DNA of 7,168 bases, taken from Candidatus Altimarinota bacterium. Its GTDB lineage: Bacteria > Patescibacteriota > Gracilibacteria > GCA-2401425 > JAJOLG01. The number at the start of each line of letters is the position of its first letter. The stretch's first letter is position 1. The DNA lies in NCBI GenBank assembly GCA_021129445.1, contig JAJOLG010000023.1, positions 1 through 7,168 of the forward strand, written 5' to 3'. Of this stretch, positions 3 to 7,168 are shown piece after piece. Below the pieces are notes generated by a model that searched no databases, had not been told where the DNA came from, and was given only the letters and a program-made list of their open reading frames with translations. Position numbers and translations under genes: made by a program.

Positions 3-2213
3 AAATTTCAAGCATACGCTTACCAATTCTACATTCCCGAAATCACCAACACATCCCAAAAAATCTCCTGAACAATCCCAACTTTCGTCTGAAAATATAT
101 CCCAAAAGACTCACAATTATTTTTTTACTCATCAGAAAATTGAAATGATGAATTTAGAATAAATGATATTCCAAAAAATTATACAAAAATTCATACTTGA
201 TATTCTTTGGGTTGATCAAATACTGATTTTTCAGACACATCAGACAAAATAAAAAACCTTGTTCAACTTGTAGACAATTCAATGCTTCATCATAAAATCC
301 GCCCATCTTCATTTTCCTGATCTTTAGCTTGATGATTTAAATATTCACCAGTTTATCATTTTCCAAAATCTTGAACTTGATATTTAAAATATTTTTACAT
401 TGATTCAAAATGAAATATTATTTGATGAAAACAAAAAGAATTTAAGATTTGAACATGAACAATTATTACTTTCAATAATTTTACAAATGAATCAAATGAA
501 ATAATTACAGATTCAGTTCAACCTTTTATTTATTGAAATTATGAACCAGACGAAGTAATAAATTGATCAATTGTTTGAAATTGAAAAATACAATCAATTG
601 CGATAAAAACAGATTTAAATTGAAATTTTAAATTTCAACCAAGGGAAAAATTAAAAGAATGAGAAACATATACAATAAATTTAAATTGATGACAGAAGAA
701 ATTAAATATTTTAGAAAATAAAAATATTCCAGAAATAATTTCTCATACAAGTTGAAATATTGAAGTATGAAAAAGACCAATATTTTTTTGAAACTGAAAA
801 CCTTGAGAAGATATTAAAATTGAGGTTTTTAACGAAGACCAATATGTAAATTCCACATCAACATGATTTTCTAATATTAAATGTAAAAAATTAACAGCTT
901 CAAATTGATATAAAAAAACTTTTACAGGTACAGATGTTTATTCTTGCTCTGAGTTATGAAACACTTGAAGTATTATTCCATTTTCTACAACATGAATTAC
1001 AATAAAAGACAATTGAAACTGGACATGGCAACTTGATAAAGATTTACAAGAAATTGAAACTGATTCAATAAATATTTATTTTGTTAAAGTTTATTATTCT
1101 GATGATCCAGAGCATTATGATCTGATATCATTTAGATATTTTCCAAAAAAAGAACCTCAAACTTTTGCTGGTGCATTTGCTTCATCGTGAAATTATTTAA
1201 AAATTGATTGAGATTTTGCACAAATTGATTTACCAAAATCTTGAAATTCTGACAGGAAAAACATTTTAGAAGTTTTTGAAAAATCCTGAACTTGAACGAT
1301 AAAAGTGTTTTCTTGAAGTGATTTGAATTACTGAATAATTTTACCACCATTTTCTTGAATAAAATTTTGAACCTGAATTTCATCATCTTGAATTTTAGTG
1401 GAAAGGGGGATGCGGTTGTATACAAAAAGGAATCAGCAAATGGAGTTAATTTTGAGAGATAAAATTTTAAATTTGAAAGAATGAGATAAAATTTTTTCCT
1501 GACCAAAAGAATCAACAATAAAAATTTTTAAACCATTAGAATTTTTTTCCTTTTGAAAAGTAAAAATTTTTCCTGATGAAAAAAATATTTCTGTAAAATT
1601 AAATAAAAATTTAGATTTTAATTTTGAAGATTTTGATAAAAGAAATTTGTGATTTTTTGAGAAAATTTGGAATTATTTTTCTGAGAATTCTTCCTGAGCA
1701 AATAAAAAATATTCTTCAAATCCAATGTGATTAGATAATGATTCAAGATTTACAGAGTACCAAAAAAATATTCAAACAATAATTCCCGACGATAAATATT
1801 CATCAGATAAAAGTTTTAAAATTGCAGATTCTTTAAATTGAAAAACAATTAAATGATGAGATAAAATCTTGATTAAATGAACAGCTTGGCCAAATACACA
1901 AATTAAATTTTCTGTTGATTGAGAAGCAATGTGAACAACTACAACAGATTGATCCTGAACATTTTTATTCAGGTTGCCAAAATGATTTAAGGCAAAATAT
2001 TGAACATTTGATAATAATATAAAAACAATAAAAATAGACAATATTGAACAAAAAAATTTATCAAAAGAATTGATTGTTTCTATTTCCAATAATTCAACTT
2101 GAACATATTTACAAGAAAATGAAATTTTAAACAAAGATAGAAATTTTGAGAAAAAAAATTGATTTATAAATTTTACTGAGAAAATAATGAAATTACCAAT
2201 TTTTGGGTGGTAA
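3..2213 (+). CDS. Large Ig-like-domain protein, probably surface-exposed (5' end outside window)
   Basis: With TGA read as glycine this frame stays open for 736 codons, from the left edge to TAA at 2211-2213. By eye it holds about 63 TGA and 5 GGN glycine codons. The start lies to the left, so any signal peptide is not visible. Three stretches look like bacterial Ig-like beta domains: fragment residues about 166-241 (a DLNGNFKFQP turn, then a GETYTINL strand), about 242-376 (KPGEDIKIEV followed by DNGNWTWQL), and about 606-672 (GGDKILIKGTAWPN, then TTTDGSGTFLFRLP). These resemble the modules that recur in adhesins and other secreted proteins. The middle (about 440-500) is Gly/Ser-rich and unassigned. 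Only two cysteines were noticed, near residue 300. There is no catalytic motif that I recognise. The two SLH genes nearby suggest an envelope role, but that is inference. The reading frame is certain, the function is not. Confidence 0.85.
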
Positions 2214-2940: not shown

Positions 2941-4926
2941 TTATTTTCCTAAAAATTTTATCAAGTTATACAAACTTTCTGCCACTTCTGCTCTTGAAAC
3001 TCATTTTCATGGTTCAAAATTTTCTCAATCAACTTTTATCAAATTTGTATCTTTCACAAATCAAATATATGGTCAAAACCAAGAATCTTTTGGGACATCT
3101 GCAAATGGGTTTTCAGATGGCATTGGTGGGTTGATTTCTGCTGATAAAAGCAAAATTTTGTAATATTCTGATCTATTCACAGATTTTGAAGGTTTAAATG
3201 TTCAATCTGAATATCATTTCACAATTCATTTTTGCATCGCTGCTCAGACAAAAGGTGAGTACCATGCATCATTTACAGTATCTTTAAAATTCACATCTTT
3301 TTTATTTTCTGTTGAAATTTTCAATCAAGCGAAAATCATTTTTATTGCTTCAACTCTTGAAACGGTTTTTTCTGGTTTAAAACTTCAATCGGAATATCAT
3401 CAAATTACTCAGTTTTCTTTTAAATATTTTATTGCTTCATAATTTTTATTTTCTGGTAAAACATCAGTAAAAATTGGTTTTTCTTCAATTTTTTCTTCTA
3501 TTTTAGCTGATTCATGCAAATTTTCTTCAAGTTTTTCAGTTTGTGGAATTTCTTTTTTAACTTCTTGTTTTATAACTTTTTCAGTTTCTTCTTTTTTAAT
3601 TTTAATTGTTCAAGTTGAACTTGTTTTTTCTGTATTTTCAGTTGTTTTTCAAGTTTCAGTTTTTTCTGATGTTCAATGCAAATTTTCCGAGTCAGATTCT
3701 AAACTTGCAATATTTTCTTCTTTTTTAATCACAACCTTTTCAGCTTCTTTTGAGATTATTTTTTTAGAAAATTTTTCTTTTCAATTTGTAATTTCAAAAG
3801 TAAATTCTTCCGCTTGTGGATTTTTTATTGAAATTTCAGCGATTCAATTTTTGAATTTTAAAATTTTAGAAAATTTTGCAGTGTTTGAAGTTGAAGAAAT
3901 TTTTATTTCAGAAGTTGGTTTAAAATTTTTAATTGTTTTGTTTTTTTCATCTTTTGCAATAATTTTTAATTTTAATTCTTTTCAAACTTCAAATTCTTCT
4001 TTTCATAAAATTGAAAATTTAATTTCACTTTTTTTAACTTCATCTTTTTTTACGATATTTTCAGTTTTTACTGAAATATTTTTATTATTAAAATTTTCAT
4101 CAATCCATTTTAATGGGTTTATTGTGTATTTTATCGCATTTTCTTTTCAAAGTCATTCTTTAACAGCGGTAAAAAAATTTAAATTTGCTCAATATACTTC
4201 TTTTGCAGTAAATGGCCAATATGGGTGCCGTGGAGCATCTTTTTTATCAATTTGAAAGTGTAAATGTGGAGTTGTTGAAGTTCAAGAATTTCAAGTTTTT
4301 CAAATAATTTGTCATTTTTTCACAATTTGTCATACTTTTACATCAATTTGTGAAAGGTGACTGTAAGAAACATAATAATTTGTTTTTTTATTTGGATTTC
4401 AATATTCTGGAACATTTCTCAATTCCAAAACAATATGTTTTCAAAATCATGAGTTTGAATTTATGATTTTGATGATTTTTCAATTTGAAATTGCTCTTAT
4501 TGGTGTTCAAACAGGGACTCTGATGTCAACTGCAGGATGTGAACCTTTTCATTCTTCTCTGTTTTGAATGTCATAATTTCATAAATAAACAACAGAATAA
4601 GTTAGTTTTGCTTGTTTTTCTTTTGTTTCTCACTTTATTTCATCAGGGGTTTTTCATCAAACCGCAAGTGAGTATTTTGAAATATTTACAAGATTTTCTT
4701 GTGAAATTTCAGAAAACTTGGTTGTTTTGTTATTTCATCACCAAGTAAACCAATTTGGAACTTTTTCAATTGGATAGACTGCTCAATCAAATTTTTCTGG
4801 AATTTGTAAAATACTTGCGCGGAACCACTCAGTATTTCAAAAAATTGAAACCAGGGAGATTCAACAAATCATTACTAATCATAGAAATAAATCTTTGTGC
4901 TCGTTGAGAATTTTTTTTACACTCAT
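2941..4926 (-). CDS. Membrane-anchored M23 metallopeptidase with three SLH repeats
   Basis: The gene encodes 661 aa in code 25, with about 45 TGA and two GGN glycine codons. ATG is at 4924-4926 and TAA at 2941-2943. Residues 12-30 are a hydrophobic segment (LFLGLVMICGISLVSIFG), probably a signal anchor. Residues about 125-225 are an M23/LytM peptidase domain. The zinc and catalytic residues are visible: H130 and D134 in HPAVD, H190 in YSHL, and H221/H223 in HLHF, plus VGTP and the [17 protein letters not shown] loop. This family cleaves peptidoglycan cross-bridges outside the membrane. An Ig-like beta segment spans about 300-400, then a Glu/Lys/Thr-rich linker about 403-482. Three SLH repeats follow at about 483-540, 543-600 and 608-661, two with GYSDG.FKP and all with a V.R.E motif. 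SLH repeats typically hold proteins on cell-wall polymer. The likely role is a wall-tethered hydrolase for growth, division or attack on another cell. Residue 233 is encoded by CGG, see findings. No Shine-Dalgarno motif is seen. Confidence 0.93.
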
Positions 4927-6270: not shown

Positions 6271-7168
6271 ATGAAAAAAAATAAAAATTTTTTAAAGGCA
6301 AAAAAATTTTTTTTTAAAATAAAATTTTTTAGAAATTTATTTTTTGTATTTTTATTATTTTTTATTTTTTCAGAAAATTCTTTTTCTGAGTGAAAAGTTG
6401 TTCAAAATATTTCAGAGGCTGAAAAAAATATTGAAAAATGAATTTTGCCATTTTGAGATGTTTCAAAAGATAATCCAGCAAAAGATGCAATTTTGGAACT
6501 TTATAGGAGAAATATTATTACTTGATATAAAGATCAAACTTTTAGGCCGGATGCAAAAATTTCAAGGGCTGAATTTGTAAAAATTGTTTTATGAGCAACA
6601 AATTGTACGGATTGTACAAGGCCAACCGAGGAAATTAAACAAAAATTTATTAACAAATCTTTCAGAGATGTTGAGGTTTGGGACTGGTTTCATTATTGTG
6701 TTTCGATTTGAAAGGATCAAAAAATTATTACTTGATATTTATCTGATTGACTTTTTAGACCGCATAAAAATATTTCAAGAGGTGAGGCGGTTGCAATTTT
6801 ATTGAGAAAAGTCGGTGTAAAAGTTGAAAAATATAATTGAGAATTTCATGATGTGAAAGATTATCATTGGTTTAAAGATTATGTAAAAACCGCAGTTGAT
6901 ATTTGACTGATTACAGAAAAAGATTGATATGTAAATCCTTTGGAGTATATTACAAGATGAGAATTTGCAATGATTACTTCAAATTTGTTATCAATTTATG
7001 ATTGTAGAGATAAAGATTTAGATAAAAATTGAATTCGTGATTTTTTAGAAATGGAAGATGGTATTTGACCTTGAAAATGGGGAGATGTTTTTTCTGGTAA
7101 AGAAGATGATTTTTTACAAAATTTTGCTGATTTTAATCAAATTCAGAATCAAATAAACAACCTAAACA
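6271..7168 (+). CDS. Secreted SLH-domain protein with calcium-loop-like motif (3' end outside window)
   Basis: The first 299 codons are visible in code 25, with about 15 TGA and 5 GGN glycines. TAG at 6259-6261 is in frame upstream, so ATG 6271 is the start. Residues 1-40 form a signal peptide: a Lys-rich start, a Phe/Leu hydrophobic core (about 19-33), then SENSFSEG as a possible cleavage zone. SLH repeat 1 is about 61-112 (FGDV, ITGYKDQTFRPD, ISRAEFVKIV). Repeat 2 is about 130-186 (FRDV, ITGYLSDGLFRP, ISRGEAVAIL). Repeat 3 is about 192-242 (FHDV, LITEKDGYVNP, ITRGEFAMI). These usually bind secondary wall polymer. Residues about 245-260 (CRDKDLDKNGIRDFLE) resemble a calcium-binding thrombospondin type 3 loop. 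The SLH block is at the N-terminus, so the functional domain probably lies beyond the window. Cysteines at 112, 115, 143 and 245 could form disulphides. No Shine-Dalgarno motif is seen. Confidence 0.92.

Follow-up and report, generated by a model that had tools for sequence, protein, structure and literature searches.

A probably doubly tethered M23 peptidase with SLH repeats, conserved across the class Gracilibacteria

The window (the whole analysed stretch of 7,168 nt from a Candidatus Altimarinota genome, GTDB class Gracilibacteria) carries on its reverse strand a gene whose features are summarized in Table 1. The first-pass annotation had described an N-terminal anchor segment, a full M23 site, an Ig-like module, a charged linker and three SLH repeats within one protein, and all of them were recovered by Pfam, AlphaFold and family alignments. 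Downstream on the same strand lies a gene for a 182-aa protein (2288-2836) without significant Pfam or NCBIfam match. The frame at 3-2213 (+), open at its 5’ end, encodes 736 aa with weak Ig-like matches (Big_13, Big_6) and is likely a surface or adhesion protein.

Table 1. Features of the M23-SLH gene. Residues refer to the 661-aa protein; coordinates are those of the window.
Feature	Coordinates	Strand	Basis or remark
Whole gene	2941..4926	(-)	661 aa plus stop, code 25; membrane helix - M23 peptidase - Ig-like - linker - 3 SLH
N-terminal membrane helix (residues 11-30)	4837..4896	(-)	AlphaFold helix 11-30; Kyte-Doolittle maximum 2.15 at residue 12
Juxtamembrane conserved motif [FLY]-[KRQ]-[AT]-S-[VIL]-[LIV] (residues 35-40)	4807..4824	(-)	Column counts, 59 members; unfavourable for signal peptidase
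Conserved stretch linking helix and peptidase (residues 44-119), FDG.xxPI.KVPNW	4570..4797	(-)	Alignments A1, A2, A4; pLDDT mostly high
Peptidase M23 domain (residues 129-233); H130, D134, H190, H221, H223	4228..4542	(-)	PF01551, E 5e-23; invariant residues; fold matches
Conserved helical segment after M23 (residues 234-278), WPFT...TINP	4093..4227	(-)	Alignment A2; AlphaFold model
Ig-like module (residues 301-394)	3745..4026	(-)	Model and fold search; phmmer within family
Charged disordered linker (residues 395-478)	3493..3744	(-)	pLDDT below 50; composition
SLH repeat 1, motif VSRVE (R524)	3346..3471	(-)	PF00395; R in 58/59
SLH repeat 2, motif VNRSE (R585)	3163..3291	(-)	PF00395; R or K in 54/59
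SLH repeat 3, motif VSRAE (R645)	2980..3108	(-)	PF00395; R in 59/59

The reading frame is open only if TGA is translated as glycine (code 25). A table 11 translation of the window contains no frame at 2941-4926 (-), and this reading was thus ruled out. The gene holds 45 in-frame TGA codons. Nine of them fall on glycines that are invariant across the first family alignment of 17 members (G48, G116, G160, G162, G212, G215, G258, G510 and G571). Since nearly all other members of that alignment use the standard code, code 25 is sound for this gene.

TGA is often used as glycine in the genome of the window, with 245 in-frame TGA in 13.4 kb (window together with loci L024, L027 and L028). A relative of the same order, G001, has 6 in-frame TGA in 19 kb and a terminal TGA in 1 of 13 cases; G012 has 5 in-frame and 0 terminal TGA. 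In the tree of the M23-SLH gene the TGA-using genome of the window pairs with G001. The reassignment in the genome of the window could be a separate or an incipient event.

The AlphaFold model of the protein has a mean pLDDT of 81.5. It consists of the N-terminal helix (11-30), a high-confidence block from residue 44 to 282 that includes the M23 domain, a beta domain (301-394), a disordered stretch (395-478) and the SLH region (484-660). Pfam and fold match strengths lie far beyond chance. PF01551 is matched with 81.5 bits against a curated cut-off of 28.7, and in a fold search with the predicted model the M23 part came closest to active endopeptidases, namely lysostaphin, LytM and ShyA (Z 14-15). 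The loss of zinc ligands on alignment, which the first-pass annotation had raised against its own proposal, was not seen: H130, D134 and H223 are invariant in 59/59 homologues, as are the catalytic-type residues H190 and H221.

Three tandem SLH stretches are assigned by Pfam (E 3e-30), and the residues of the TRAE-type motifs are conserved. The best structural counterpart is the SLH part of Bacillus anthracis Sap (Z 22.4), including the structure bound to a pyruvylated unit of the wall polymer (6bt4). The Ig-like module, folded alone, is modelled as a sandwich of the Ig type that weakly matches domains of filamin and alpha-2-macroglobulin, and the linker of 84 aa contains 21 D/E and 15 K/R. 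M23 and SLH occur together in all of the 59 aligned homologues, and nearly all of these have one hydrophobic helix just upstream. The stretch between them varies from 51 to 350 residues across the family, and varying Ig-like modules are recognisable by phmmer within the family in a subset of homologues. Hence we infer that this stretch is a spacer, in which length rather than sequence matters.

Further M23 proteins were noted. The genome of the window encodes a second one of 344 aa (L154:1303-2334 (+), contig C13) with three degenerate SLH-like repeats (GISNGERPKEFISREE), no visible signal peptide and a layout resembling that of endolysins. In the TGA-using genome G033 (family f15) a full family member of 610 aa (L155:1377-3209 (+)) is found 12 kb from a 288-aa M23 protein (L155:14998-15864 (+)) that shares the flanking motifs, its frame lacking helix and SLH repeats.

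The architecture was sought in other genomes as the first-pass annotation had proposed. When the N-terminal half was used as a profile (A2), 247 of the 353 class genomes gave matches at E ≤ 1e-30, as a rule a single one per genome. Among 379 genomes drawn from across the phylum, matches are confined to the class except for one weak and partial hit. By eye, this protein (G376) was rejected as a family member and is rather LysM-M23-like. Among 80 named loci most belong to Ca. Peregrinibacteria, Peribacteria and Gracilibacteria MAGs, so that the parallel to an Absconditabacterial predator that had been drawn has no tie to this protein. The gene is missing from about 30% of the class, among them the majority of the listed genomes of f12, a TGA-using family, and it is thus dispensable in some lineages. 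The f12 genomes have few SLH repeats.

In a small gene tree the multi-member families are monophyletic, and the gene of the window is paired with that of its same-order relative with a support of 0.96. Judged by this tree and the distribution it looks like a vertically inherited envelope gene. Neighbours of the homologues, named by eye, include tsaE-, ruvB-, VirB4- and aspS-like genes as well as a wall protein of the PG-binding type. The tsaE-, ruvB- and VirB4-like neighbourhood of the relatives is not conserved in the window, and the operon context is therefore uninformative on function here. The M23-SLH protein emerges as a conserved protein of the housekeeping type, belonging to the class as a whole, and not as a predator-specific weapon.

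Whether the N-terminal helix is kept or cleaved decides how the protein would be held. Motif inspection with column counts over 59 members found no signal-peptidase site after the helix. The sole candidate has F, L or Y at -3 in 55/59 members and T at -1 in 22/59, and a hydrophobic helix is present in nearly all of them. By contrast, xFA ends of the ordinary kind are seen by eye in other proteins exported from this genome's cell (ENTFA/LN, QNIFA/ET, GFAFA/NC and LNVFA/EE). The bulky -3 position and the conserved, unfavourable motif, next to ordinary sites elsewhere in the genome, make it likely from the alignments that the helix is retained as an anchor. A count of A-x-A motifs gives 10/68 against 30/115 in a mixed control, which is a weak contrast. 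A lipoprotein was considered and rejected by eye: C21 lies inside the helix, preceded by V-M-I, and no lipobox is present.

It is nevertheless conceivable, if unlikely, that export is followed by removal of the helix, leaving an ordinary S-layer-associated hydrolase that only its SLH repeats hold in place, like BslO of B. anthracis. The short N-terminus would be compatible with a signal peptide, and SLH hydrolases of the BslO type are exported SLH proteins that aid the separation of daughter cells (PMC3297441). However, the helix is followed by conserved residues, most of which do not favour signal peptidase I, and the plain sites of the other exported proteins speak against this option as well. 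Moreover, many homologues have 30-100 residues ahead of the helix, with uncertain start codons, which is more in keeping with an anchor than with a signal peptide. The first-pass annotation had the protein held at both membrane and wall. The membrane segment and the SLH repeats are present, so that the double tether is probable on this basis, and the analysis of cleavage motifs argues against release from the membrane.

The genome of the window contains three matches to Mur ligases and further ones to PBP transpeptidases. It further encodes a CsaB-like pyruvyl transferase, whose best NCBIfam match is TIGR03609 (E 8.5e-44 across the whole model) with 150 bits, below the curated cut-off of 213. 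In B. anthracis, SLH repeats bind a polymer that is pyruvylated by CsaB (PMC3297441). Own peptidoglycan genes and a CsaB-like enzyme make a self-directed tether plausible without a host; substrate of the M23 domain and ligand of the SLH repeats are plausibly both the cell’s own.

Eleven SLH repeat matches are spread over several proteins of this genome. One of these proteins is a neighbour in the window (6271-7167 (+), on to L024:7413), seemingly secreted with a plausible signal peptide (SENSFS/EG) and with a run of unread bases in its C-terminal part. Two more are encoded by adjacent, divergent genes on contig C7: an SLH, DPBB and CAP protein of 909 aa (L025:8393-11122 (+)) and an Ig, PG_binding_1 and SLH protein of 760 aa (L025:6000-8282 (-)).

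We consider it moderately probable that the protein is a doubly tethered type-II M23 metallo-endopeptidase acting on the cell’s own peptidoglycan. Its N-terminus would remain inside and the membrane helix attached, which would position the M23 domain directly outside the membrane. The Ig-like module and the flexible 84-residue linker would extend the SLH trimer outward, where the three repeats may bind a pyruvylated polymer on the wall of the same cell. Peptide cross-links would then be cleaved within the zone between membrane and wall surface only, and could serve growth, wall turnover or daughter-cell separation.

The first-pass annotation had also proposed that the enzyme is presented to a host or prey cell, the protein being anchored in the membrane of an epibiont and the SLH repeats helping attachment. 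The authors who described SLH proteins of Absconditicoccaceae tied them to host contact (PMC13059738), and in a gracilibacterial bin M23 peptidases were interpreted as lysing other cells (PMC9530719); both are inferences from genomes. The hydrolases named in the Vampirococcus paper are other ones, and its text mentions neither SLH nor M23. Against such a role, the gene is class-wide and near single copy, seemingly inherited vertically, and the own peptidoglycan together with the CsaB-like gene offers a simpler target. Moreover, a membrane-tethered active site would have to cross the cell’s own wall before reaching a host. No host-specific feature was found in gene, distribution or context, and with no particular link to hosts or prey we regard this reading as improbable.

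There is equally little to recommend a non-catalytic M23 domain, structural or activating as in EnvC or SpoIIQ and mainly joining membrane and wall: the LytM folds of both are among the structural matches of the M23 part and linking membrane to wall requires no activity, but 59/59 homologues have all zinc and catalytic-type residues unchanged. Activators of the EnvC/NlpD type have degenerate active sites.

On the reading of a doubly tethered enzyme directed at the own wall, a further function may tentatively be suggested. The class-wide double tether might act as a ruler that keeps M23 activity at a fixed distance from the membrane and at the same time as a mechanical joint between membrane and wall. 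If true, it would be a distinctive envelope part of these ultra-small bacteria. Their envelope biology is experimentally almost unstudied, and their M23 genes are usually interpreted as weapons. A conserved, near-single-copy and probably self-tethered M23 enzyme is a counter-example to this interpretation and a candidate core factor of wall remodelling. It moreover suggests that display by binding of SLH repeats to a wall polymer is common to the envelopes of this class.

M23 and SLH are already listed as a domain pair of modular cell-wall hydrolases (table of cell-wall peptidases in PMC6403190), and SLH domains are generally C-terminal in such enzymes (PMC6403190). Our literature search found no paper joining Gracilibacteria, SLH and M23. 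Hence, the fusion as such is known, but the literature searched gave no description of a family that is confined to one class, has juxtamembrane and flanking motifs of its own and probably keeps its anchor. The family seems to be a variant of the known fusions. In the same class, family f7 also has M23 and SLH in single frames (1883 aa in G018:C3, 1895 aa in G006:C27). These are about 3x larger, and the present family was not found in their genomes (for G006 by the phylum-wide search). With the M23/LytM endopeptidases lysostaphin, LytM and ShyA the protein has the HxxxD, H and HxH residues in common. It differs from them in that the M23 domain is placed between a membrane helix and SLH repeats, is flanked by conserved segments and carries a loop insertion. 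BslO of B. anthracis is likewise a murein hydrolase displayed by three SLH repeats (PMC3297441). It is a glucosaminidase, whereas the protein described here is an M23 peptidase that apparently retains its N-terminal anchor.
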